Shown here: positions 23,250-53,895 of the stretch, one piece after another
Layout of the letters: each line of letters opens with the position of its first letter
Position numbering within the stretch: position 1 is the stretch's first letter
From: Pyrococcus sp. NA2
GTDB taxonomy: Archaea > Methanobacteriota_B > Thermococci > Thermococcales > Thermococcaceae
Direction of reading: 5' to 3'
DNA: 64,000 bases
Assembly: GCF_000211475.1 (NCBI RefSeq)
Contig: NC_015474.1
Location: 868,001 to 932,000 of the forward strand
The notes under the pieces: generated by a model
Told to the model about the DNA's origin: nothing
Databases searched by the model: none
Seen by the model: the letters and a program-made list of their open reading frames with translations, nothing else
Translations under genes and position numbers: made by a program

Positions 23250-24299
23250 TCAAAGAAGGGCGATTCTCGTTAGTGGATCGCTTAATTTGTACACCTCATT
23301 TTCTTCCACTATCCACCCCATCTTTTTCAGGTTCTTGAGGAGCTCGTATAACCGCGGCTCTGGAGTTCTAATTCCCCTAACGTAAAGGTAGTCCCTTAAA
23401 AGGCTCCATCTATTGTATCCCAGGGCTATTCCCCTCAGGATTTCGACATAGCGACGAGTTCTCCTCTCCAGTTCTTTAAGCTCTCCAAGAATTAACCCTC
23501 TTGCAGTCTCAAGTGTCCTTTCGAGGGCCTTCTCAGGATTCTTGCTTCTGAGATACTCAACTCCAAAGAGGACAAGCCATCCAGGAATACCATCCAGCAC
23601 CTCAACGGCTCTGTCTATAACCTCCTCTGGAACCTCGACGTTAACTTCCCTAAATCCGGTTATGAGAAATTCCCTTGAAATTTCGGGAGAAAATGGTTTA
23701 ACGTAAACTTCTCCCGCAATTCTTCCATAGAGTGGGCTCTTGTAGTCATCGATTCCAAGGAAGTCATGAAGAAGCCCCACTTCTGAACCCGTTAGGATGA
23801 ACCTTAGATTTGGAAGAGAGTCATAGGCATAGGCAAGGAGGGCCAACAGCTCTTTTCCTCCTCTGGAGCCATAAAAGCGGAGGTATTGAGCCTCATCAAA
23901 GGCTATTATGAACCTTCCCGTCCTCTCTCCAATTTCGTTGAGCTCTCTGAATATTTCTCTCAGCGGGGTTTCCTTGGGCTCGAGTTTGAGAAATTTCAGA
24001 TCAATTGACATCTTGAACTTTGACAGAATTTTCTCCAGAGAGTTAATCTTTGATCGAAGTTCCCTGGTTAAGTCTTCCTTAGTAATATGTCCGCTCTCCG
24101 CGTATAGCTCCCTGCAGTCGATTAATATTCCTGGGTTCTCGTTGAGATACGACTTGAGGATTGAACTTTTCCCTACCCTTCTTATTCCAAGGAGAAGGGT
24201 TATTGGATAACTCTCAACGCTTTTCTCAAGCTCTCTGAACTCTTTTTCCCTGTCAAAAATTTCCTCTCTCCTCTCCTTTGGCCTCAGGTCGAAGAGCAC
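23250..24299 (-). CDS. Archaeal STAND-like ATPase (PF01637 type) without nuclease domain
   Basis: The 349-aa protein carries the FDREKEFRELEK entry motif, Walker A LGIRRVGKSSILKSY (~40), Walker B IIAFDEAQYL (~140), a sensor LTGSEVG (~178), the region GRIAGEVYVKPFSP, and a C-terminal winged helix (RDYLYVRGIRTPEPRLYELLKNL). Unlike its relatives at 26760-32678 it ends after the wHTH and lacks the DUF234 nuclease-like part. The start is GTG 24299, close to its operator repeats. Function is unknown; binding of DNA by the wHTH and self-regulation are inferred. Confidence 0.8.
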   Translation of the reverse strand: MLFDLRPKERREEIFDREKEFRELEKSVESYPITLLLGIRRVGKSSILKSYLNENPGILIDCRELYAESGHITKEDLTRELRSKINSLEKILSKFKMSIDLKFLKLEPKETPLREIFRELNEIGERTGRFIIAFDEAQYLRFYGSRGGKELLALLAYAYDSLPNLRFILTGSEVGLLHDFLGIDDYKSPLYGRIAGEVYVKPFSPEISREFLITGFREVNVEVPEEVIDRAVEVLDGIPGWLVLFGVEYLRSKNPEKALERTLETARGLILGELKELERRTRRYVEILRGIALGYNRWSLLRDYLYVRGIRTPEPRLYELLKNLKKMGWIVEENEVYKLSDPLTRIALL

Positions 24300-24334
24300 T
24301 TACGCCACCGTAAGTTACTTACGGGGGCATAAGT
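24298..24334. promoter_or_regulatory. Double inverted repeat at the ATPase start codon
   Basis: ACTTACG-4 nt-CGTAAGT covers 24298-24315 and a second, weaker copy (ACTTACG...ATAAGT) covers 24317-24334, 19 bp apart. The GTG start of the minus-strand ATPase sits at the edge, and the minus-strand TATA (CTTATAACTT, ~24332-24341) overlaps the second copy. The divergent gene at 24382 has its own TATA (GTTTATTTAC, ~24352). Confidence 0.6.
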
Positions 24335-24933: not shown

Positions 24934-25160
24934 AGCTAATCACCTCCGGAAGGAACGACTGGGTTTTCGATTCCCTCCTGAAACTTTCGGCCCTAAACTT
25001 CTTCTTTGGCTTGGTTGGCTTTTATGGGCCGAAAAGAATTGGAAAGCTGACTGCATTACTATTGACTCTCATCGTCTTCACCCAGCTGTGGGTTGCTTGG
25101 GGATTTTGGTTTAGGTCAGTAACCTTTAAGTATTTCGTGCATGCATGCACTTATTGGTGA
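24930..25160 (+). CDS. Small membrane protein (2-3 helices)
   Basis: The 76-aa product overlaps the previous gene by 4 nt (ATGA), suggesting translational coupling. It has two hydrophobic segments ([12 protein letters not shown] region and [21 protein letters not shown]). Its last codons contain the palindrome that probably regulates the downstream vapBC pair. Family unknown. Confidence 0.55.
25137..25150. promoter_or_regulatory. vapBC operator candidate
   Basis: GTGCATGCATGCAC is a perfect 14-bp palindrome at the end of the upstream gene. A TATA-like CTTTAAGTAT (~25123-25132) lies directly before it, so it falls on the expected transcription start of vapBC. VapBC complexes commonly repress their own promoters through such sites. 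Confidence 0.55.
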
Positions 25161-25399
25161 TGCCATTGGGCAAGACGATAACCATAGCCGATGATGTTTA
25201 TTATGAACTCGTCAAGATGAAGGGCAAGAAGAGCTTTTCAGAACTCCTAAGGGAGCTGATAGGGAAGAAAAAGAAGGGAAATCTTGACGTGCTCATGATA
25301 GCCTTTGGAACGAGAACTCCAGAAGAGGTCGAACAGCTCAAGAAAGAGCTCAAGGAGGTCGAGGAATGGATAAACTCTTGGACACCAGTGTCATTGTAG
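25160..25399 (+). CDS. vapB: VapB-family antitoxin (DUF217/UPF0330 type)
   Basis: From ATG 25160 (GGTG just upstream) the product is 79 aa: [19 protein letters not shown], then [18 protein letters not shown], and an acidic helical tail ([17 protein letters not shown]). This is the arrangement of archaeal VapB antitoxins, with an N-terminal DNA-binding/dimer part and a C-terminal toxin-neutralising tail. The frame continues upstream to 25145 but without a ribosome site. It overlaps vapC by 34 nt. Confidence 0.82.
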
Positions 25400-25740
25400 A
25401 GATCTTTGGAGGAAACAAAAAGGTTATAGAATCTCTTTCTCCTAATGAAACTTACGCGATCCCAACTATAGTTTTGTTTGAACTTTATTGTGGTAATTTA
25501 AAAGAACGGGAAGTGCTTATGCTCGAAATGATACCAAAAGTTGAGTTTAATGAGGAGGCTGCTAAGATAGCCGGTTGGATGTTCCAGGATTTGAAGGAAA
25601 AGGGAAAACTACCACCGTTGAAAGATCTCCTCATAGCTGCAACGGCGATAGCACATGACATGACCCTTATCACCTGTGATAGGGACTTTGAGATGTTTAA
25701 AGAATATGGCCTGAAAGTGAAGATCTTGGAAATTTGTTAA
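25366..25740 (+). CDS. vapC: VapC-family PIN-domain ribonuclease toxin
   Basis: The 124-aa PIN domain starts with [13 protein letters not shown] (first acidic Asp), then the Glu in [10 protein letters not shown] (~39), the Asp in [21 protein letters not shown] (Asp near 88 in the [11 protein letters not shown] segment, and DRDF at ~103). All four expected acidic positions are present, so it is probably active. It cleaves RNA, often tRNA or rRNA, and is held off by VapB. It overlaps vapB by 34 nt. Confidence 0.87.
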
Positions 25741-25799
25741 TTTTTGTAAACCTAGAACGCGGTCAGTTGTTAGGGAAAGAAGAATGTCCAAATTATTAT

Positions 25800-26735
25800 G
25801 CTTGCTCTTAATGTTTGTAAATCGAAAGGATGAGCTATCACTTCTTGAGTCACTCAGGAGCTTCTGATTCTCTACGGATACAGGCAAATTGGAAAAATGG
25901 AACTTGTGAAAAATTTATCCAGGGAAAAAGCGCAATCTACTTCTTAGCTGACAGGGAAGGGTCTGAAGTCAAGCGAGGCGATTTTATTGCGAGGTAGCAG
26001 ATGTTCTTGGACTTCCAAAACTTGAGGTACGGGATTTTAGAGAGGCATTTGATAGACAAAATCCTCGACGACCGCATAACTCAAACTTAAATCTCTGAAC
26101 CTCTTTCACGTTCGAGAGTACTTCAAAAACTCACCCATCGAAACTATCGTTAGAATATACTCCGTTACCGGTGGCGTTCCGATGTACTTCCGGCCCTTTA
26201 AGGAAAAACTTTGAGGAGGAGCTCCTTAGAATACTTGAGAACGCTGATGTCCCTGGAGCTCGTGAGGCGTGAGGTTCCAGTCACCGAATCGGAGAAGAGC
26301 GAGAAGACCTGCTATTTACCAACTTAGCCTTTTGGTTTTTGCTTTGTTAAACCTAACCGCAGAAAGATAGAAATTGGAACCTTCGAGAGGGGATTGAGAG
26401 GCTTTCAACACCTATGTGGGAGAGGTCTTTGAGGATATAGCCAGGCAGTTTTTAATCGAACTCAACAAACTCGGAAAGCTTCCTTTGGCATAAAAATGAA
26501 GAAATAGACTCTGTGGCCTTGAGCGGGAAAAGGGTTTGTTCGTTGAGGTTAAGTGGAAAAGCCTAAGCGAGAGGGAAGTACGTGGAATTTTAAGGAATTT
26601 GGAGAGAAAAGTGAGCTCGTTGAATTTGATGATCGTGTTGTTTATGGAATTAGTTACTAAGAGAGTTGAAGGAAAAGAGGGCTCAAGAGGGAAGACTAGT
26701 TAGTTTGGGATTCGACCGACTTCGAAATGTTTATA
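25800..26735 (+). pseudogene. Degenerate ATPase-DUF234 gene
   Basis: Fragments in changing frames match the intact copy downstream in order. They are FVNRKDELSLLESL and LILYGYRQIGKMELVKNL (Walker A with Thr/Ser replaced by Met), then VTGGVPMYF, NTYVGEVFEDIARQFLIELNKLGKLP, and WHKNEEIDSVAL with VEVKWKSLSEREVRGILR (each given as recognisable parts). It ends near LVWDSTDFEMF at ~26730. Multiple stops and frameshifts make it a pseudogene. It lies immediately upstream of the intact copy at 26760. Confidence 0.8.
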
Positions 26736-26744
26736 ACTTCAAAA

Positions 26745-26779
26745 AACTTACTCTTGAGTATGATACTCACGAGTAAGTT
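26745..26779. promoter_or_regulatory. 35-bp near-perfect palindrome over the ATPase start
   Basis: The arms AACTTACTC and GAGTAAGTT flank inner arms TGAGTAT/ATACTCA. Only one base pair and the central base break symmetry. The ATG at 26760 lies inside it, and a TATA-like GTTTATAAC (~26729-26737) precedes it. The symmetrical size fits a dimeric DNA-binding protein. Confidence 0.65.
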
Positions 26780-28139
26780 CGTTGATAGGAAGGCCGAGCT
26801 GAACTTCCTCAAGGAGCGCTACAACTCTGGGAAGGCCGAGCTGATAATCCTCTACGGGCGGAGGAGAATCGGGAAGACATACCTACTGATGAAGTTCCTG
26901 GATGAAGTCGGTGGGCTTTATCTCCTGGCTGAAGAGAACGAGATGAACCTCGAGGACTTTTCCACGAGACTGGCTGAGTACTTCAACGACCCCTTCCTAA
27001 AGGAAAATCCGATTCGGAGCTGGGGGGCCTTCTTCACCTATCTCGCTGGAAAGAGCAGGGAGAGACTCGTGGTGGTCATTGACGAGGTTCAATATCTCGC
27101 TAAGGCCGAAAAGAGCTTCCTCAGCACGCTTCAGAAATACTGGGATCTGTATTTGGCTAACACGAAAATAATGCTGATTCTTTGTGGTTCGCTCGGTTCA
27201 TTCATGGAGGGGATTCTCTCCGCGAAGTCGCCGATCTACGGGAGGAGAACGGGAGCGTGGAAGGTGGGAGAAATAGACTTCTTTAATTTGCTCAAATTCC
27301 ACCCTCTCGATATAGAAACCGCCATTAAGGTCTATGCAGTCTTTGGTGGCGTCCCCCAGTACTGGGCGGACTACGATCCAGAGAAGGACTTCTGGGATAA
27401 TATAAGGACATTAATCCTCTCGAAGGGGGCCAAGTACTACGACGAGCCGAAATATCTCCTCAAGGAGGAGCTTAGGGATGTTTCGAGATATTTCTCGATT
27501 CTTCGCGCCATAGCTCTCGGCTACACGCGCTTCGGCCAGATAGCAGATAAAGCGAAGATAGAAACTAAGAGCCTCGGTAAGTACCTCAACGTTCTGGAGG
27601 AGATGGGTTACATCAGGGAGGAAAAGCCCGTCGTGGGGAGGGGGAGAACAGTTTACAGGATAAATGACAATCTCTTCAACTTCTGGTTCCGCTTCGTCTT
27701 TCCGAGGAGGGACGAGATAGAGATGGGTTTCGACGTGGTTGAAGAGATAAGGGAGGAGTTTAACACCTATGTGGGACAGGTCTTCGAAGATATAGCCAGG
27801 CAGTTTTTGATTGAGTTGAATAGGGCGAGAAAACTTCCCTTCAGGTTCACTAAAATCGGTCGCTGGTGGCATAAAAACGAGGAGATAGATCTCGTTGCTT
27901 TGAACGAGCGGGAGAAGAAGGCTTTGTTCGTGGAAGTGAAGTGGAAGGAATTGAGCGATAGGGAAGTGCGTGGAATTTTAAAGGATTTAGAGAGAAAAAG
28001 CGAGCTCGTTGGACTTGAGAGCTGGAAGAAAAGTTATGGTCTTGTAGGGAAGAGGGTTGAAGGAAAGGAGGGGCTCAGGGAAGAGGGGTGGCTAGTGTGG
28101 GACTTAGAAGAGTTTGAAGGGCTTATAAAAAGTGCATGA
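26760..28139 (+). CDS. Archaeal ATPase with wHTH and DUF234 (PD-(D/E)XK-like) domain
   Basis: The ~459-aa protein begins FVDRKAELNFLKERY. Walker A ILYGRRRIGKTYLLMKF (~27) and Walker B VVVIDEVQYL (~110) form the ATPase, followed by a sensor ILCGSLGSFM (~140). A winged helix (~250-310, GQIADKAKIETKSLGKYLNVL) precedes the C-terminal DUF234 domain (~350-459). That domain contains RWWHKNEEIDLVALNERE and ALFVEVKWKELS, whose ID...EVK spacing matches PD-(D/E)XK nucleases. ATG 26760 fits the family length better than the 26727 start. The function, possibly genome defence or selfish regulation, is unknown. Confidence 0.85.
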   Translation: MILTSKFVDRKAELNFLKERYNSGKAELIILYGRRRIGKTYLLMKFLDEVGGLYLLAEENEMNLEDFSTRLAEYFNDPFLKENPIRSWGAFFTYLAGKSRERLVVVIDEVQYLAKAEKSFLSTLQKYWDLYLANTKIMLILCGSLGSFMEGILSAKSPIYGRRTGAWKVGEIDFFNLLKFHPLDIETAIKVYAVFGGVPQYWADYDPEKDFWDNIRTLILSKGAKYYDEPKYLLKEELRDVSRYFSILRAIALGYTRFGQIADKAKIETKSLGKYLNVLEEMGYIREEKPVVGRGRTVYRINDNLFNFWFRFVFPRRDEIEMGFDVVEEIREEFNTYVGQVFEDIARQFLIELNRARKLPFRFTKIGRWWHKNEEIDLVALNEREKKALFVEVKWKELSDREVRGILKDLERKSELVGLESWKKSYGLVGKRVEGKEGLREEGWLVWDLEEFEGLIKSA

Positions 28140-28184: not shown

Positions 28185-28217
28185 AATGATAATTGTCATT
28201 ATGATAATGGTGATTAT
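28185..28217. promoter_or_regulatory. Two inverted repeats upstream of ATPase 28221
   Basis: AATGATAATTGTCATT (28185-28200) and ATAAT-GGTG-ATTAT (28204-28217) lie in front of the ATG at 28221. A TATA-like GTTAAAATG (~28180) precedes them. The second element is nearly identical in sequence and in distance to the ATG to the one before the antitoxin at 57391. Confidence 0.55.
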
Positions 28218-28220
28218 TAT

Positions 28221-29588
28221 ATGCCCCCATTTGTTGACAGAAGGGAGGAATTCAAGGCCCTTAAAGAGCGTTTAACGAGCAACAACTTTGAGCTTATCGT
28301 CATTTATGGGCGGAGGAGGGTGGGGAAGACTCGCCTTGTCCTCGAAGCCGTTAAAGACCTTCCCCACGTCTACTATCTGGCGGTTGAAGGCGACAATCTG
28401 AGGCACTTTCGAGAAACCGCTGAGAGAGTGTTTCCGGAAGTTAGATACTCTCGAGAAGATTGGGAGGGGACCCTACATGCCCTAAGAGGGAAAATCATTG
28501 TTATCGACGAGTTCCCGAACCTGATAAAGGAAAATCCTCAGATTCTCTCACTCCTCCAGAGGGTCATAGACTTGGACTTATCGAATTCTAACACCAAGAT
28601 CGTTCTCCTTGGCTCCTCGGTAAGTATGATGACCGAGAAGGTTCTGAGCTACAAGAGCCCCCTCTACGGCAGGAGAACCGGCTCGATGAAGCTCAAACCA
28701 ATGAACTTCTTTTCCCTCAAGGAGTTCTTTCCCAAAGCTAGTTGGGAGGAGCTCGTCGAGATCTATGGTATGACCGATGGAATTCCCTTCTACATAACCC
28801 AGGTTAAGCTCCCCTTCTGGAAGTGGCTGGAGGAAGAGCTTTCCAGCCCGGTGAGCTTCTTCAGGGACGAGGTGGATTTTCTCCTGAAGTACGAGTTCAG
28901 CGAGGTGAGCACCTACAAGAGAATTCTTGAGGCGATAGCCCTCGGAAAGACGACCCCCAAGGAGATAAGGGACTTCACAGGCCTGAGGCATTCGGATATA
29001 AGCCCCTACCTCAGGAATCTGATCGAGGCCGACCTAATAGTGAGGGAGGTGCCAGTTACCGATAAAAGGACATCAAAGAGAGGGCGCTACTATATTGCCG
29101 ACAACTTCCTAGCTTTTTGGTTTAGATTCATCTTCCCGAACCTCTCGCGCATAGAGGAGGGGACGTTCAGCGTTGAGGAGATAAGGGACTCCTATGACCA
29201 TTACCTTGGCTTTGTTTTTGAGAAGGTGGCGAGGCAGTATTTGGTAAAGCTCAATAAAGCCGGTGAACTTCCCTTTAAGTTCACTAAAATCGGCCGCTGG
29301 TGGCATAAAAATGAAGAGATCGATCTGCTCGCCCTGAATGAGTGGGAGAAAAAGGCTCTGTTCGGTGAGGTTAAGTGGAAGAAGCTTAGCGAGAGGGAAG
29401 TACGTGGAATTTTAAAGGATTTGGAGAGAAAAAGCGAGCTCGTTGGACTGGAAGGATGGGAAAAGCATTACGGTCTAGTGGCTAAGGAAATCCAGAATAA
29501 AAGTGCACTGAAAAGCGAGGGTTGGCTTGTATGGGATTTGGAGGATTTCGAAAGGCTTGCTTCTCCTGGGAGAATCTCCTACCTTTGA
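28221..29588 (+). CDS. Archaeal ATPase with wHTH and DUF234 (PD-(D/E)XK-like) domain
   Basis: The 455-aa protein has FVDRREEFKALKERL at the N-terminus, Walker A IYGRRRVGKTRLVLEA (~28), Walker B IVIDEFPNL (~97), the GRRTGSMKL region, and a wHTH (~245-300, RDFTGLRHSDISPYLRNL). The DUF234 domain has WWHKNEEIDLLALNEWE (~360) and ALFGEVKWKKLS. The nuclease-like half is closely related to those at 26760 and 31308, while the N-terminal half differs. Preceded by a distinct operator. Role unknown. Confidence 0.85.
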   Translation: MPPFVDRREEFKALKERLTSNNFELIVIYGRRRVGKTRLVLEAVKDLPHVYYLAVEGDNLRHFRETAERVFPEVRYSREDWEGTLHALRGKIIVIDEFPNLIKENPQILSLLQRVIDLDLSNSNTKIVLLGSSVSMMTEKVLSYKSPLYGRRTGSMKLKPMNFFSLKEFFPKASWEELVEIYGMTDGIPFYITQVKLPFWKWLEEELSSPVSFFRDEVDFLLKYEFSEVSTYKRILEAIALGKTTPKEIRDFTGLRHSDISPYLRNLIEADLIVREVPVTDKRTSKRGRYYIADNFLAFWFRFIFPNLSRIEEGTFSVEEIRDSYDHYLGFVFEKVARQYLVKLNKAGELPFKFTKIGRWWHKNEEIDLLALNEWEKKALFGEVKWKKLSEREVRGILKDLERKSELVGLEGWEKHYGLVAKEIQNKSALKSEGWLVWDLEDFERLASPGRISYL

Positions 29589-29774
29589 TATAATGCCCAA
29601 GATAGAAGAACTGAGTTGTGCTTGCAGTAATGCATTGTTGGGATAACAAGAAGGTCTATCTTCTACCATACAACTTTCTTCTTTCTCATACCTCCGATAC
29701 AGGGGCAACTCCTCACAATATGAGTGACAAGGCCGAAATATCGATTAAGCTCTGACCCTTCAATTTTTAAACCC

Positions 29775-29827
29775 TGAGAACTCATACTTCTCAATCTTTA
29801 TAAAGGATTGAGAACTATAACTTCTCA
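29775..29827. promoter_or_regulatory. Two 19-bp inverted repeats flanking the TATA box of ATPase 29837
   Basis: TGAGAA-7 nt-TTCTCA occurs at 29775-29793 and again at 29809-29827, 34 bp apart. Between them lies the TATA box CTTTATAAAG (~29796-29805), and the ATG (29837) follows 10 bp after the second. The two copies have different central bases, so this is an evolved operator pair and not a simple duplication. Confidence 0.7.
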
Positions 29828-29836
29828 GGTATTCAT

Positions 29837-31030
29837 ATGAGGCTGGGCGATCTCACCTACATGAACCCCTGGTGGGAAGGGAGAGAGGACTACCACGTGA
29901 GGCGCTGGAGGGAACAGAGGTTACACTGGCGGCCGAAATGGCTGGAAAGGCTTTCGCTTAGGCCGTTCTCACTTAACTTCGTCCTCGGCCCGAGGCAGGT
30001 TGGAAAAACGACGGGAATAAAGCTCATGATCCAGGAACTCCTGAAAGATAACCCACCCGAGGCCGTTCTCTACATCAACGTCGAGGTTCTTCCAAGCCAC
30101 CACGAGCTCTTAAACCTCCTCCGTGAGTTCCAGGAGCTTAAAGAGAAGGAAGGCATCAAGATAGGATATGTCTTTCTCGACGAAGTGACTTCCCTTGAGG
30201 GCTGGTGGCGCGGGGTTAAACCGCTCATAGATGCTGGCCTTCTAGAGAGGGATGTGATTACGGTTACGGGCTCAAGCTCCCTGAGGGTCAGGAGGGACAT
30301 TGAACTCTTTCCGGGCAGGAGAGGGGGCGGAAGGATCATAGAGGTCATGCCCCTTTCCTTTCCAGAGTACTTAGAAATTAGGGGACTCAAGAAGCCGGAA
30401 CTTCACAGGGGGAAAGTCCTGAAGCTCTTCGAAGAGTATCTGACTACCGGCGGATTCCCGGGAGCAATAAACGGCCTTCCAATGGATGATCTCCTCGGGG
30501 CGTATATAGGAGATATTGTCCGCTTTGGTAAGAGTCTTGAGATAGCGAAGGAAACCTTTGCGGCGGTGATAAGGAGCGCTCCCTCGGCGACGAGCTTTAG
30601 GACTCTGGCCGGAATGACCTCCGGCTACTCCTACAAGGTGGTTCAGGACTATATAGAGTTTTTCACCGAGCTTTACATCCTTGGGATAGCCTATCTCAAG
30701 CAGGGAAATCAGATCATGTATAAGCGTGAGAAGAAGTTCTTCTTCCGTGATCCTCTCTTGGCGAGGCTCTTTGCGCTGTGGAGTGGGACAGAGCTGAGGG
30801 AAGATGCCCTCTACGAGTGGATCGTTCAAGAGCATCTATACCGTTGTTTTGGGGAGGTTTACTACTACCGGAACTCCTACGAGATCGATGCGATAGCAGG
30901 AAATCTTAAGGTAGAGGTAAAGGCCGGAAAGGCTCATAGGAAGTACCCGAAAAACGTAAGGGTGCTGGAGAAGGAGGATGTACCCTTCTTTCTGCTTGAA
31001 CTTACTCATGAGGGTACTTCTCGATTTTAA
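29837..31030 (+). CDS. AAA_14/DUF4143-type ATPase
   Basis: The 397-aa protein carries MNPWWEGREDYHVRRW, Walker A FVLGPRQVGKTTGIKLM (~55), Walker B VFLDEVTSLEGWWR (~115) and TGSSSLR (~148), then GRRGGGR with a FPEYLEIRG region. The C-terminal DUF4143-type part ends in YRNSYEIDAIAGNLKVEVKAGK, where ID...VEVK matches a PD-(D/E)XK-like core. It is shorter than its relatives but shows no frameshift. Operator copies precede it. Confidence 0.85.
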   Translation: MRLGDLTYMNPWWEGREDYHVRRWREQRLHWRPKWLERLSLRPFSLNFVLGPRQVGKTTGIKLMIQELLKDNPPEAVLYINVEVLPSHHELLNLLREFQELKEKEGIKIGYVFLDEVTSLEGWWRGVKPLIDAGLLERDVITVTGSSSLRVRRDIELFPGRRGGGRIIEVMPLSFPEYLEIRGLKKPELHRGKVLKLFEEYLTTGGFPGAINGLPMDDLLGAYIGDIVRFGKSLEIAKETFAAVIRSAPSATSFRTLAGMTSGYSYKVVQDYIEFFTELYILGIAYLKQGNQIMYKREKKFFFRDPLLARLFALWSGTELREDALYEWIVQEHLYRCFGEVYYYRNSYEIDAIAGNLKVEVKAGKAHRKYPKNVRVLEKEDVPFFLLELTHEGTSRF

Positions 31031-31225: not shown

Positions 31226-31307
31226 ACTGACAATCAGATCAGAGGAAGGGTCAATAACCTCTTACCTGGCGAAACCTTTTTTATTCATTTCGACTTGTAA
31301 TTATATT

Positions 31308-32678
31308 ATGAGGATTCGAAAATTTGTCAACCGCGAGAAGGAGCTCGAAACCCTGGAAAGGCTTTACGGGAGAGAAGGTTTTACTCTCGTCCTCGTTACT
31401 GGTAGGAGAAGGATCGGGAAGAGCAGGCTTGTTAGAGAGTTTTTAAAGGGAAAAAATGCCATAAGTGTTCAGTTCGAAAAGAGGCTCTGGGAGTACAATT
31501 TGAAGAAGCTTAACAAGGCTATAGGAGAACACTTTGGGATTCCAGCTCCAAACTTCTCCACCTTCAGTGATGCCTTCCACTTTATCGCCTCTCAGTCTAG
31601 GGAAAGGCTCATCGTATTCCTCGACGAGTTCTCCTACCTGCTCCGGTATTCTGAGGTGGAAGCCGAGTTCCAGAGTATAATTGATGAGATACTCCAGGAG
31701 AGCAATATTATGTTGATCCTCTCTGCTTCATCTGTTGGCCTGCTTAAGAGGAGCTTTTTCGAATACTCAAGCCCGCTCTACGGGAGGAGCGATGTCACAC
31801 TGAACCTCCAGCCCTTAGGCTTCAAGCATATCTTCGAGTGGTTTGAGGATATCTCACCAGAGGACGCCGTGAAAGTCTATGCAGTAACCTCCGGCGTTCC
31901 CCGCTACCTTGAGCTTTTCGAGGGAAGGAATGTTGATGAAGAAATCAAGGCCAACTTCTTCGACCCAAACGCCTTCCTCTTCCGCGAGGCCAAAGAGCTG
32001 CTTGAAGAGGAGTTTAGGGAGCCTGAAACGTACTACACCCTGCTTGAGGCGATAGCTAAGGGAAAGACGAGGGTGAACGAGATAGCTCAGCATGCCTTCC
32101 TTGAGCCCAAGAATACAGCAAGATACTTGAGGATACTTGAAGATCTTGGAATACTAAAGAGGGAGCTTCCCGTTGGGAGGAAGGCGAAGAGGGGTATCTA
32201 CCGCTTTAAAGATTTGTATTTTGCTTTCTGGTTTAGGTTTGTCGCCCCTTACTTCGAGGAGATAGAGAGCGGCTTCCCAGAAGGTGCGCTGGAAGACTTT
32301 AACGCAAACTTCAACCGCTACCTAGGCTACGCTTTCGAAGAGATAGCTAAGCAGTTTTTAATCGAAATCAACCGAGCTGGAAAGCTTCCCTTTAAGTTCA
32401 CTAAAATCGGTCGCTGGTGGCATAAAAACGAGGAGATAGATCTCGTTGCTTTGAACGAGCGGGGGAAGGGGGCTTTGTTCGTGGAAGTGAAGTGGAAAGA
32501 TTTGAGCGAGAGGGAAGCTAAGAGAATTTTGAAGGACTTGGAGAGGAAATCTAGATTGGTTGGACTGGAAGGGTGGGAGAAGTGGCATGGATTGGTTGCT
32601 AAGGGGATTGAGGGGAAGGAGGAACTTAGAGAAGAGGGTTTTCTGGTCTGGGACTTGGGGGATTTTGAAATATTTTAG
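31308..32678 (+). CDS. Archaeal ATPase with wHTH and DUF234 (PD-(D/E)XK-like) domain
   Basis: Starting at ATG 31308 the product is 456 aa: KFVNREKELETLERLYG, Walker A VTGRRRIGKSRLVREF (~27), Walker B IVFLDEFSYL (~103), ILSASSVGLL (~140), a wHTH (~250-300), then RWWHKNEEIDLVALNERG and ALFVEVKWKDLS. The frame continues upstream to 31173 but those residues are junk overlapping a remnant. The ~68 bp coding for the nuclease motif (32396-32463) are identical to 27845-27912. No palindrome as clear as in the neighbours was seen upstream. Confidence 0.83.
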   Translation: MRIRKFVNREKELETLERLYGREGFTLVLVTGRRRIGKSRLVREFLKGKNAISVQFEKRLWEYNLKKLNKAIGEHFGIPAPNFSTFSDAFHFIASQSRERLIVFLDEFSYLLRYSEVEAEFQSIIDEILQESNIMLILSASSVGLLKRSFFEYSSPLYGRSDVTLNLQPLGFKHIFEWFEDISPEDAVKVYAVTSGVPRYLELFEGRNVDEEIKANFFDPNAFLFREAKELLEEEFREPETYYTLLEAIAKGKTRVNEIAQHAFLEPKNTARYLRILEDLGILKRELPVGRKAKRGIYRFKDLYFAFWFRFVAPYFEEIESGFPEGALEDFNANFNRYLGYAFEEIAKQFLIEINRAGKLPFKFTKIGRWWHKNEEIDLVALNERGKGALFVEVKWKDLSEREAKRILKDLERKSRLVGLEGWEKWHGLVAKGIEGKEELREEGFLVWDLGDFEIF

Positions 32679-32824: not shown

Positions 32825-32908
32825 TGTGAAAGTGCATTTTCACAGCTTTCCCATTTTATGAAAGCAAACTTTCACAAATCTTATAAACTATGAAAGCCCA
32901 CCTTCACA
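32825..32908. promoter_or_regulatory. Triple 20-bp inverted repeat, 32-bp period, before ATPase 32910
   Basis: Copies of the pattern T(G/A)TGAAAG-N-CTTTCACA (the first ends TTTTCACA, the third CCTTCACA) occur at 32825-32844, 32857-32876 and 32889-32908. Starts are exactly 32 bp apart. The TATA box CTTATAAAC (~32880-32888) sits between copies two and three, and the ATG follows copy three. Three sites on one face of the helix suggest cooperative repression. Confidence 0.75.
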
Positions 32909-32909
32909 C

Positions 32910-34232
32910 ATGGCAGTTAAGATAGTTAAGCTCATCAGGCACAATCCCTGGTGGAAGGGCGAAGGGTGGGAGGCAGAAGACCCGGACCTCTCAAAGGTAC
33001 CTAAAGGAGATAGGATACCTCGTAGGACGGTGAGATTGAAAAATGGGGAAATAACTCTTATACGGGGCGTTAGGAGGGCTGGAAAGAGCTTTTATCTCAA
33101 GACTATCATAGAGTCTCTCGTGAGGGAAGTTGACCCCTTAAAGGTGGTTTACATCCCCTGCGACCGCTTCACGAAGAGGGAAGTTAAGGGCTTCATAGAC
33201 GAGCTGAGGAGGAGGCACGGTGAAATATGTCTCTTCCTCGACGAGATAACGTACCTCAAAGACTGGAGGCTTCTCTTGAAGGAACTTGGCGAGGAAGGCA
33301 TCACAACAGTCGCCACTGGCTCAAACCCGGTTGAGCTCAAGAAAGAGAGCGAGCTACTCCCAGGGAGGGGAATAGAGGGCAATGAGTACTACTTCAACCC
33401 CCTCAACTTCAGGGAGTTCGCCCGCTACATGAACGACCGATTTCCCGATGTTGCTTTTACTTACAGGAACCCTGAGGTGGATAAGATTCTTCCCTGGTTC
33501 GAGGAGCTGGATGGTCTGTTTTATGCCTACCTCCAGACTGGTGGCTTTCCGGAGGCGGTGCTCGAGTTCAGGAAAAAGGGTAGGGTGAGCGAGGAGCGCT
33601 ACGAGGAGTTCATAAGGCTCGTCCTGGGCGAAATCGCGAAATCTGGAAAGAGCGAGGAGATAGCCAGGGAAATTCTTGAGACAGTTCTCAATCTGAAGGG
33701 CAACAGGGTGGACTACGTGAGCATAGCTAAGAAAGTTGGAGTTTCGCATCCAACGGTTAGGGAGTATCTCTCGACCCTCGAGAGCGCAAGGTTAATTTAT
33801 ACTCTCGAAGCTTGGGACGTCTCAAAGAAGCACCACGCCCACAGGAAGGAGAAGAAGATAGTCTTCCAGAGCCCACTGATAGCTTTGTCCCTGGCGAAGT
33901 ATATAGGAGAGGATCCCTTTGAGTTTCTTGAGGAAAACATCGAGTGGCTGGTTGAGGGAACTGTTGCCACACACGTTATATGGTCCCTTGAAGAACCAAT
34001 AATCCGGGAGAAGCACTCGTTTGCTGGCTTTTACTACGATTCAAGCAAGGAGTGTGACATTGTGATAAAAGAGGGCGGGAAGTTCTTCGGGATTGAGGTC
34101 AAGTACGGCGAGGTCAAGCGGAAGAGGTATCCCTTCCAGACCATATACATCTCGAAGGACGAAGTTGGCGAGGACGTGTATCCCGTTTCCCTCTACCTCT
34201 ACGGGCTGGAGAAAAGCGGGAGGTCAATATGA
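32910..34232 (+). CDS. AAA_14/DUF4143-type ATPase
   Basis: The 440-aa protein has an N-terminal RHNPWWKGEGWE, Walker A LIRGVRRAGKSFYLKTI (~50), Walker B LFLDEITYLKDWR (~107), VATGSNPVELKK (~132) and a central wHTH (~275-305, VSIAKKVGVSHPTVREYL). The C-terminal part has SSKECDIVIKEGGKFFGIEVKYG, a PD-(D/E)XK-like core. It is regulated by the triple repeat directly upstream. Role unknown. Confidence 0.87.
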   Translation: MAVKIVKLIRHNPWWKGEGWEAEDPDLSKVPKGDRIPRRTVRLKNGEITLIRGVRRAGKSFYLKTIIESLVREVDPLKVVYIPCDRFTKREVKGFIDELRRRHGEICLFLDEITYLKDWRLLLKELGEEGITTVATGSNPVELKKESELLPGRGIEGNEYYFNPLNFREFARYMNDRFPDVAFTYRNPEVDKILPWFEELDGLFYAYLQTGGFPEAVLEFRKKGRVSEERYEEFIRLVLGEIAKSGKSEEIAREILETVLNLKGNRVDYVSIAKKVGVSHPTVREYLSTLESARLIYTLEAWDVSKKHHAHRKEKKIVFQSPLIALSLAKYIGEDPFEFLEENIEWLVEGTVATHVIWSLEEPIIREKHSFAGFYYDSSKECDIVIKEGGKFFGIEVKYGEVKRKRYPFQTIYISKDEVGEDVYPVSLYLYGLEKSGRSI

Positions 34233-35821: not shown

Positions 35822-36064
35822 CCATGCTCGAAAGACTTTCAGCCTCGATTACTCCAACGAACTCTGAGGCGAAAGGAAAAGGGCCTTAGCGTTTGCCGAG
35901 GGTTCCTGTCAAGGTGCTCCCCCTGTGAACATACTAAGAATAGAGGTTTCAAAGCTCATAAAACTCCTCAACAAGAAGGACTTCCAGTTCAAGAGTCCCT
36001 GGGCGAGAGGGGCTTTAGTGATGTTATGTTGGTTTAATGCTCGAAAAGTTGGGCAAGTTTACAA

Positions 36065-36088
36065 AACAACTATTTATAAATAGTTGTT
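36065..36088. promoter_or_regulatory. Perfect 24-bp palindrome upstream of ATPase 36136
   Basis: The half-site AACAACTATTTA is followed by its exact complement in reverse. TTTATAAATA, a TATA-like core, lies in its middle, and the same TTTATAAATA recurs at 36106-36115, 33 bp further, close to the ATG at 36136. The first copy could be an operator overlapping an upstream promoter. Confidence 0.6.
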
Positions 36089-36135
36089 CAATATACTGGA
36101 CAAGGTTTATAAATAATGCTGAGGTATTAACCCCT

Positions 36136-37425
36136 ATGAGGGAAGATTTAGCCAAGGTTTTGGTGGAATGGCAGGAAACATGGACGCCCGAGCTCGTCGA
36201 GAGGGACTTTGACCTCTCCCTGATTCCGGATAAACCGAGAAAGGTTGTAACCTTCGCAGGTTGCCGGAGGGTCGGCAAAACCTACCTCATGTTCCAGCTC
36301 ATCAACGAATTGTCAAAAAAGGTTCCGAAGGAGGAGATATTCTACGTCAACTTCGAGGACGAAAGGCTTGAAAAGAAGGTTGAAACCCTAACCGAGCTCA
36401 TCCCAACGATAGAGGAGCTTTATGGAAGGAAAGAAAGGCTATACCTCTTTCTGGACGAAATACAGAACATTCCAAACTGGGATTCATGGGTGAGGAGAGT
36501 TCACGATTCGAGGAAGGATGTGAGACTCTTCCTGAGCGGTTCCTCCTCAAAGCTGTCAAGCAGAGAGATCCCGACATCACTCAGGGGCAGGGCGCTGACA
36601 TTTGAAGTTTTTCCTCTGAGCTTCCGGGAGTTTCTTAGGTTCAAGGGTTTTGAAATGCCGGAGAAACTGGATTTCAGCTCGAAGAAGCCGGTTCTCCTTA
36701 ACCTGTTGAGGGAGTACGTCCTTTACGGAGGCCTTCCCGAGGTTATTCTAACCGAAGACGTGAGGATTAAGAGGCTAATCGTCAGGGACTACTTCAACAC
36801 GATAATAGCCCTCGATATTGTGGAGAGGTATTCAATCAGAAATCCTGAAGAGCTCAGGGCATTCATCAGGCTTCTCCTTAACTCTGAGTACGTAAGCCTA
36901 AGTAAAATCGCTAAGACGATGAAGAGCATGGGCTATTCAATATCCAAATCAACCCTCGCAAACTACCTGAGGTACCTTGAGGAGTGCTACTTTGCATTTC
37001 CCCTTGAGGTTTATTCCCCAAAGGTAAAGCTCAGAATGCAGCACCCCAGAAAGATATACTTCATTGACACATCGTTCCTGACGTTTTTGAGCGTAAAGTT
37101 CAGCGAGAACATGGGGAGACTTATGGAGAACACGGTTTTCATCGAGCTTCTCAGGCGTGGAAAGGAGGTTAACTATGCTCTCGGGGAGAACTGGGAGGCT
37201 GATTTCGTTCTACCAGAGGAAGAAACCCTCATACAGGTTAGCTACGATGTTAGTGATGAGGAAACGCTAAGGCGTGAGGTGAATGCGCTAAGGAAGGCAT
37301 CAAGGGAATTCGACTTTAAAAATGCTTTGTTGATTACGTGGGATTCCGAAGGGAGGATAGAGGAGTGGAGAGTTACGATAGAGATCGTTCCATTGTGGAA
37401 ATTCCTGATTGGGGATTATACTTGA
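36136..37425 (+). CDS. AAA_14/DUF4143-type ATPase
   Basis: From ATG 36136 the protein is 429 aa: EDLAKVLVEWQETWTPELV, Walker A FAGCRRVGKTYLMFQL (~44), Walker B LFLDEIQNIPNWDSWVRRV (~105), LSGSSSKLSSREIPTSLRGR (~130), DUF4143 region from ~250. The acidic end NWEADFVLPEEETLIQVSYD has Gln-Val-Ser where the nuclease Glu-x-Lys would be, so this copy is probably not a nuclease. The frame runs upstream to 36037 but that includes the operator. Confidence 0.83.
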   Translation: MREDLAKVLVEWQETWTPELVERDFDLSLIPDKPRKVVTFAGCRRVGKTYLMFQLINELSKKVPKEEIFYVNFEDERLEKKVETLTELIPTIEELYGRKERLYLFLDEIQNIPNWDSWVRRVHDSRKDVRLFLSGSSSKLSSREIPTSLRGRALTFEVFPLSFREFLRFKGFEMPEKLDFSSKKPVLLNLLREYVLYGGLPEVILTEDVRIKRLIVRDYFNTIIALDIVERYSIRNPEELRAFIRLLLNSEYVSLSKIAKTMKSMGYSISKSTLANYLRYLEECYFAFPLEVYSPKVKLRMQHPRKIYFIDTSFLTFLSVKFSENMGRLMENTVFIELLRRGKEVNYALGENWEADFVLPEEETLIQVSYDVSDEETLRREVNALRKASREFDFKNALLITWDSEGRIEEWRVTIEIVPLWKFLIGDYT

Positions 37426-52650: not shown

Positions 52651-52690
52651 TGGCTGTTATTATAATGGTGGTTATTATAATGGCCATTAT
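52646..52690 (+). repeat. Three tandem 15-bp repeats (TATAATGG-type operator)
   Basis: TATAATGGCTGTTAT, TATAATGGTGGTTAT and TATAATGGCCATTAT follow each other without gaps at 52646-52660, 52661-52675 and 52676-52690. The third contains the perfect palindrome ATAATGGCCATTAT. The ATG of the broken ATPase (52680) lies inside it, and the first begins inside the cobD stop. Confidence 0.75.
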
Positions 52691-53895
52691 AATAAGGAGG
52701 GAACTTGAAGATGTATTGAACTCGAGGTGGCTACTCCTGTAAGACTGGGAAAACGTTCTATGTTAGGGAGAGAGGGGATTACTCAAGGTATTTCATAGTG
52801 ACGAAGAGCAGGGTCCTCATAAACATAACTAATGGGGAGGAAATGAGCGAATCCGAGTTTCGGAAGTTGCTTCCATTTCTCATCCGGGAGGAGAGAATAG
52901 TCGTGGATGAGTTCCATAGGTTAAGCGATGAAACGCTATCAACTATACAGGCCCTAGGTGGTAGTGGAAGTATAATCCTGATAACATCTACGATTAGGAA
53001 GATAGTTGGAAAGAACAGTCCAATTTTGGGACTTTTTGAACTCAAAAAGGTTGACCTAGTGGATCCGAGAGATGCAATATCCTTTTCGAGGTCCTTGGGC
53101 TTTAAAGGAAAGGAGATGATGGAGATAGCATGTTTAGTTAGGGAACCCTGGATAGTCCCTAAGCTTGAGAGAGTTAGGGGGAGGATATTCGACGAGCTCG
53201 AGGAAGAACTTAGGATATACGTTCCCCATTTAGTTGGAGAGGTATTTGAGGAGGAAGATATTGAGTTCACGAGCAGGTACTCAGGAATACTTGAGGCCGT
53301 TGCTAATGGTAAGAACTCGGCTTCTGAGATATCCAGCTACCTCTACTCTTTAGGTTTAATAGAGAAGGACAATCCTGGGCTGATATCCCAGTACCTGAGG
53401 AACCTAGTTGACATGGGGCTCATCGTTCCTAGACTCGTATTCGGAAAGAGAAAGAAGGTTTTCAAGTACAGATTGACGTCCCTACTCGTTGATCTAGCTT
53501 TCTACTTGAACTCAAAGTACGCATTCTTTGAATCTGGAGCTGGAGTGGGAGAGAATGTTGGTGAAATTCTGAGAAGGAGAATCCCGATTTACATGGAGTG
53601 GTTCTTTGAGGAGCTCCTTGAGAGGTACTTTGGAATGCAACCCATCAAGATTGCGAAACCTGAACTCGAAGTTGATATAGCCCTAAGGGACTTCAAGAGG
53701 ATAAAGGTGGTTGGAGAGGTCAAGTGGAGGGAGAGCATAGGGGAGAAGGAGATAAGGAAAGCTGAGGAGAAGCTTAGAAGATTCGGGGAAGCGAGGAAGA
53801 TGCTAATAGTTCCGAGCAAGGATTCCCTAAAGAGGGAGCCCAGAGGGATTGAGGTGTGGGACTGGGAGGACTTCCTCAGGATATCTCTTTTATAG
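52680..53895 (+). pseudogene. Broken ATPase gene (P-loop damaged)
   Basis: From ATG 52680 the frame gives AIIIRRELEDVLNSRWLLL and then stops. One frame later (from ~52744) TGKTFYVRERGDYSRYF continues to the end. A 'GRRK'-type run of the P-loop is missing between them, so the break removes the Walker A. The remainder reads VVDEFHRLSDETL (Walker B region), TSTIRK, wHTH (~160-215) and an EVDIALRDFKRIKVVGEVKWRES end with a PD-(D/E)XK-like core. The GTG start at 52798 is a late re-entry and not the original start. Confidence 0.75.

Follow-up and report, generated by a model that had tools for sequence, protein, structure and literature searches.

In the genome of Pyrococcus sp. NA2, the start codon of a gene for a 459-residue ATPase, here called g1, lies at the centre of a nearly perfect palindrome. 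We propose, with a probability of roughly 0.7, that this palindrome is a private operator through which the g1 ATPase represses its own gene by means of its own winged helix. Comparison with orthologues and paralogues gives good support for a conserved, gene-specific and subfamily-specific DNA element at the g1 promoter, and from the same sequences we infer the g1 product as the binder and repression as the direction. Negative autoregulation appears most likely because each genome holds one site, each paralogue has a distinct site, a protein bound at this position would block the polymerase, the product has a winged helix, and the distances between operators fit.

Palindrome over the promoter and start codon of g1

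The window, the whole stretch of 64,000 nucleotides that was analysed, contains the features collected in Table 1. The palindrome is centred on position 26762, which is the G of the ATG at 26760-26762. Across the 35 bp from 26745 to 26779, 16 of 17 pairs are matched, which bears out the initial annotation of a 35-bp palindrome over the start codon, one pair off perfect and with the ATG inside. A repeat search extended the symmetry to arms that are 87% complementary with 1 nt between them. With arms of 17, its score of 16/17 is the best in the 64-kb window, and only one of 40 dinucleotide-preserving shuffles of the window contained any 16/17 palindrome (mean 0.025 per shuffle). Two 14-bp dyads, TTACTCTTGAGTAT-G-ATACTCACGAGTAA, arranged in tandem with a 15-bp period, make up the palindrome, which places four half-sites under one overall dyad. 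The initial annotation had missed this tandem structure and the similar elements at nearly all ATPase gene starts of the window.

Table 1. Coordinates of features in the window
Feature	Position	Strand	Basis or remark
BRE/TATA-like promoter element of g1, CGAAATGTTTATAA	26723..26736	+	sequence; kept in orthologues
Full inverted repeat at g1 start	26739..26785	none	repeat search; 23-nt arms 26739-26761 and 26763-26785
Left 14-bp dyad, TTACTCTTGAGTAT	26748..26761	none	sequence; 15-bp self-match period
Right 14-bp dyad, ATACTCACGAGTAA	26763..26776	none	sequence; overlaps codons 2-6, codon constraint
g1, ATPase_2 + winged helix + DUF234 (PD-(D/E)XK-like) protein, 459 aa	26760..28139	+	Pfam, AlphaFold2
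Candidate g4 operator, ATAATTGTCATTAT-G-ATAATGGTGATTAT	28189..28217	none	palindrome score; kept in 24 aligned orthologues
g4, paralogous ATPase_2/DUF234 gene	28221..29588	+	Pfam
Candidate g5 operator, TTTCGACTTGTAATTATATTATGAGGATTCGAAA, over ATG 31308	31288..31321	none	orthologue alignment, symmetry
g5, paralogous ATPase_2/DUF234 gene	31308..32678	+	Pfam, orthologue alignment
15/17 palindrome at start of minus-strand ATPase_2 gene 23250-24299	24299..24333	none	also between that gene and divergent gene 24382
Two GAGAACT/TTCTCA dyads flanking TATA box of AAA_14 gene 29837-31030	29774..29828	none	kept in 23 orthologues
Three TGAAAG-N6-TTCACA-type dyads, 32 bp apart, before AAA_14/DUF4143 gene 32910-34232	32827..32908	none	kept in 12 orthologues
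AACAACTATTTATAAATAGTTGTT before PDC-S01-type ATPase, ORF 36037-37425	36065..36088	none	palindrome score, PADLOC
14/17 palindrome at start of broken DUF234-type ATPase gene (52659-53895)	52659..52693	none	palindrome score

To place the palindrome relative to the promoter, we measured its distance from the TATA box. The middle of the TATA box lies about 28 bp from the dyad centre at 26762 (g1 median 27.5 bp), and CTTATAA or TTTATAA stands at the same position in nearly all aligned g1 orthologues. The group medians of this distance range from 20.5 to 27.5 bp in six of the seven paralogue groups described below; in g7, unlike the other six, the dyad covers the TATA region. For Thermococcus kodakarensis, the reported spacing between TATA box and transcription start is ~23 bp, and leaderless transcripts make up ~14% of mRNAs (PMC4247193). 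Since the palindrome lies just downstream of the TATA box, it would cover the likely transcription start together with the start codon, and by analogy with T. kodakarensis the transcription start is predicted at or near the dyad centre in six groups. The right spacer in g2 and g4 holds GGTG, which is likely a ribosome-binding sequence.

The g1 set comprised 25 Thermococcaceae orthologues and the window gene (26 sequences). These keep TACTCnn-AGTAT-G-ATACTCnnGAGTA with few departures and have a single symmetric centre (z 6.3), and all 26 aligned sequences have ATG at the same codon, which backs the MILTSKF start. Codons 2 and 5 are ATA and AGT, respectively, in 26/26; codon 3 is CTC in 24 (CTT in one, CCC in one), and codon 6 is AAG in 20, AGG in five and ATG in one. 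Codon 4, located in the 2-bp spacer, varies freely (T, M, V, A or R), and the codons from 7 onward show mostly synonymous variation. As read from this alignment, selection at the g1 start holds the DNA and not the protein. The initial annotation had suggested that a repressor sitting here would stop transcription as well as initiation. In part this is supported, in that the palindrome behaves like a DNA site for a protein over promoter and start codon and is retained in the 25 orthologues. The palindrome had also been said to constrain the first seven codons; this holds for codons 2, 3, 5 and 6, which are nearly frozen even synonymously, but not for codons 4 and 7, which are free. Orthologues that keep the N-terminal protein sequence and lose the symmetry had been named as the refuting case, and the reverse was seen, in that residue 4 changes while the arm bases stay. 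As for compensating changes, which the initial annotation proposed to look for in orthologues, the palindrome is conserved and covariation appears in g4, in g7 and between paralogues, but it is rare within g1 (permutation p 0.82), where it cannot show because the arm bases hardly vary. Within groups, covariation by permutation was significant only in g4 (p 0.0025) and g7 (p 0.003) and was not significant in g2 (p 0.12), g3 (p 0.96), g5 (p 0.73) and g6 (p 0.26), likewise to g1.

When the full g1 pattern was searched in its own genome with up to 3 mismatches, we found the g1 site and one site at the promoter of the paralogue g3 (3 mismatches). A regulon was rejected as a reading, since this search gave no further target. 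The g1 core pattern with at most 1 mismatch gave 94 hits in 94 genomes against four for a reversed control, the hits being counted strand-wise so that both strands of one dyad are separate. Eight sites away from intact g1 or g3 genes were inspected: four were relics (decayed gene starts, a DUF234 remnant or an orphan operator) and four were one-mismatch occurrences in unrelated sequence; hits beyond these eight were assigned from coordinates only. On one contig (L295, genome G022), an orphan g1-type operator at ~1919-1991 lies 260 bp upstream of an AAA_14 gene with no recognisable g1 gene; it is either a relic or a captured operator.

Domain structure of the g1 protein

The g1 protein matches PF01637 (ATPase_2) at 2.9e-24 and PF03008 (DUF234) at 4.8e-37, with scores above the gathering thresholds (86.6 against 33.2 bits and 126.8 against 22.5 bits, respectively). 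Walker A residues G33, R34, R35, R36, G38 and K39 and Walker B residues D108 and E109 are invariant in 31 sequences. The AlphaFold2 model has a pLDDT of 92, with values below 50 for residues 1-6, and the first six residues are thus predicted to be disordered, which we count in favour of the operator reading. The closest PDB structures to the model are 2qen (Z 22.8) and 2fna (Z 21.1), followed by plant NLRs and Orc/Cdc6 proteins. At residues ~243-300, the model contains a winged helix of the MarR/ArsR/MCM_C-like kind; its Pfam match is sub-threshold in g1 (MCM_C, 19.9 against 27 bits) and above threshold in the paralogue g4 (MarR_2, 28.2 against 27 bits). In the C-terminal domain, the conserved residues D377, E392 and K394 form a D...ExK motif. 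When this domain was modelled alone, it matched 1y88 (Z 10.2), 2vld (Z 9.1) and Can2/Card1 (Z 8-9), and Foldseek alone was weak (E at best 4.5e-3). Based on the model, the domain looks like a PD-(D/E)XK nuclease with putative activity. In PADLOC, the protein starting at 26760 matches PDC-S27 at 1.1e-51, and another PDC-S27 match was obtained at 6.9e-35.

Elements at paralogues and in the wider family

The genome holds seven full ATPase/winged-helix/DUF234 members (g1-g7), and each of the seven groups has one outstanding conserved symmetric centre at its promoter (z 4.1-6.3) with different letters. Besides the elements of g1 and g4, these are TTACTTACAAGTAA-A-TTACTGGTGAGTAA in g2, GAGTAT-T-ATACTC in g3, TTTCGA...TCGAAA in g5, TTCGAATCATG..TTAT-T-ATAATCATGATTCGAA in g6, and outer arms AAAATGnTGT/ACATCATTTT in g7; those of g3 and g5 are partly of poor symmetry. 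A shift of 15 bp gave the best self-match in five of the seven groups (0.47-0.70 against ~0.25). Considering that each operator has different letters, the paralogues would not cross-regulate one another.

We extended the comparison to 21 protein clusters, which span Geoglobus, Aenigmatarchaeota, Micrarchaeota, Methanoperedens and one bacterial contig. The best promoter palindrome averaged 12.9/17, compared with 9.65 ± 0.98 in shuffles; it reached at least 13 in 62% against 0.5%, and own arms matched at 13.3/17 against 9.6 for swapped arms. At the 3' ends of family genes no counterpart was found, the best score being 9.7 against 12.5 at the 5' ends. The genes occupy differing neighbourhoods across species, and relatedness was seen in 20 of the 325 pairs of upstream flanks. 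The distance between operators of different clusters tracks that between winged helices (r 0.33) and between ATPase domains (r 0.30), and its correlation with the nuclease domain was not significant (r 0.14); for the recognition helix, the partial correlation with the operator was weak (0.15-0.17). Since the winged-helix correlation is weak and that of the ATPase nearly as strong, shared ancestry may explain it. The bacterial homologue, on a Deltaproteobacteria contig (L051), has a 13/17 promoter palindrome, AGTATAATCCATATTATACTAATGACGATTATACT, upstream of position 2003 and of a Shine-Dalgarno-like sequence.

Within the window, all five palindromes scoring at least 14/17 (at 26762, 24316, 29801, 36076.5 and 52676) lie at the starts of ATPase genes or remnants. 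The 47 other gene starts had a mean best score of 9.7, and the single score of 15 among them comes from a start that shares the 24316 palindrome with the divergent ATPase gene. Two genes escape this simple scoring with arms of 17: g5, for which the start of the long ORF differs from the true one, and gene 32910 (score 9-10), which has several short dyads. The true start of ORF 36037-37425 is probably at ~36136, and the ORF from there matches PDC-S01 at 9.9e-114 in PADLOC. Judging from their conserved dyads, the AAA_14 genes 29837 and 32910 may carry further private operators. In gene 32910 and its 12 orthologues (for example, L251), three to four TGAAAG...CTTTCA dyads are spaced ~32 bp, or three helical turns, apart, a multi-site candidate operator array that differs from the 15-bp tandem seen at DUF234 genes.

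At least seven ATPase genes, which PADLOC assigns to the two families PDC-S27 and PDC-S01, are clustered between 23250 and 37425. All of them have a promoter dyad, and the cluster looks like a candidate defence island. Just upstream of g1, positions 25790-26700 hold a decayed copy of the same ATPase family, in which the C-terminal DUF234 part is 65% identical and interrupted by three in-frame stops. Beside the cluster, at 25145-25740, two adjacent small ORFs (84 and 124 aa), judged by eye, have the look of a VapB/VapC-type (PIN) toxin-antitoxin pair.

Alternative explanations for the palindrome

A different host transcription factor could bind the site and control these ATPase genes. The g4 letters (GATAAT...ATTATC) resemble a common metal-regulator box, which together with the only moderate link between operator and own winged helix would suit such a factor. 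However, the motif differs in each paralogue group, so that a separate single-target factor would be needed for each, which is uneconomical; the full g1 site, unlike a regulon, occurs once in the genome, and the motif moves with its gene into unrelated neighbourhoods. As such, we regard control by a host factor as unlikely. The DUF234 nuclease might instead recognise the palindrome for self-cleavage, homing or mobility, as the PD-(D/E)XK-like domain (D377, E392 and K394; folds of 1y88 and 2vld) and the differing gene neighbourhoods would allow. This is very unlikely, given that the site position is tied to the TATA box and that operator distance does not track the nuclease domain, and the missing 3'-end counterpart speaks against it as well. 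The end of a mobile element was rejected on the same 3'-end result.

The palindrome might also act in RNA, as a hairpin that hides the start codon. An RNA started upstream of 26740 would fold strongly (-30.6 kcal/mol, z -4.0) with the AUG inside, but judged from the TATA box, transcription starts near the dyad centre, and the RNA would then contain only half of the palindrome. Moreover, A-C-like mismatches (60) are as frequent as G-U-like ones (58), although an RNA helix would tolerate G-U, and in g7 and the 29837 family the dyads span the TATA box. Based on these three points, the hairpin was rejected as the main reading, and we find it barely plausible. That the palindrome arose by chance, or from promoter and codon bias alone, is extremely improbable: one window shuffle in 40 did yield a 16/17 palindrome, but chance is ruled out by the 25 orthologues that keep the site and by the comparable elements at all paralogues. 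Within the proposed autogenous control, the g1 product may activate its gene instead of repressing it; repression is the most likely direction, based on the position of the site and on the analogy with Pyrococcus LrpA and Phr.

Discussion

According to the proposed autogenous model, the g1 ATPase would bind as an oligomer, through its own winged helix, to both adjacent dyads. These dyads have their centre at the predicted transcription start and the ATG; once bound there, the ATPase would block transcription of its own gene, and it would have no other target in the genome. A nucleotide state or a trigger may then relieve the repression, as we infer.

Autoregulation through a palindrome is already known as a kind. 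LrpA and Phr repressors have a palindromic site over their own promoter near the transcription start, and g1 is similar in having a conserved dyad over its own promoter and start and a DNA-binding domain in its product. In contrast, g1 encodes a STAND-like ATPase whose C-terminus is nuclease-like, and this protein is not a recognised transcription factor; its candidate operator, present once in each genome, pairs two dyads in a 15-bp tandem. MalT and mycobacterial IniR are also STAND ATPases that control transcription, but they regulate other operons with other DNA-binding domains, unlike the self-control proposed for g1. SSO1545 (2fna) and PABY2304 (2qen) share the ATPase and winged helix (Z 21.1 over 287 residues and 22.8 over 296 residues, respectively); unlike g1, they have ~350 residues and lack the DUF234 C-terminus, and we know of no DNA target for either. 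Titles cited in a catalogue of P. furiosus transcription factors describe Pyrococcus LrpA as negatively autoregulated and as abrogating RNA polymerase recruitment, and the main text of the catalogue does not mention ATPases (PMC6316755).

PDC-S27 has been described as a candidate, unvalidated antiviral family in which an ATPase is fused to PD-(D/E)XK, and the archaeal copies number 3503 for PDC-S27 and 9986 for PDC-S01 (PMC12988326). The window proteins match the models of both families and have the same domain make-up, whereas the main text of that paper is silent on promoters, palindromes and autoregulation (PMC12988326). In the open-access literature we found no report of operators at these ATPase genes, and a report in a subscription journal is possible; the papers found for DUF234 are mostly unrelated ones on T6SS. 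As far as our searches show, what is new is the presence of operators across an ATPase-nuclease family, private to each paralogue and sharing the 15-bp tandem.

Few putative defence genes are commoner in archaea than those of PDC-S27 and PDC-S01, whose function is unvalidated. A private operator for each copy predicts a DNA target for an uncharacterised winged helix and offers a reason why many paralogues coexist in one genome, and the g1 start is a case in which selection on DNA dictates the first codons of a protein. It is conceivable, if rather doubtful, that thousands of archaeal PDC-S27 and PDC-S01 ATPases are one-protein circuits in which the same molecule serves as STAND sensor, nuclease-like effector and sole self-repressor. 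If this were true, sensing an invader would trigger the effector and also relieve the repression, and many paralogues could exist side by side without cross-talk thanks to their diverging private operators.
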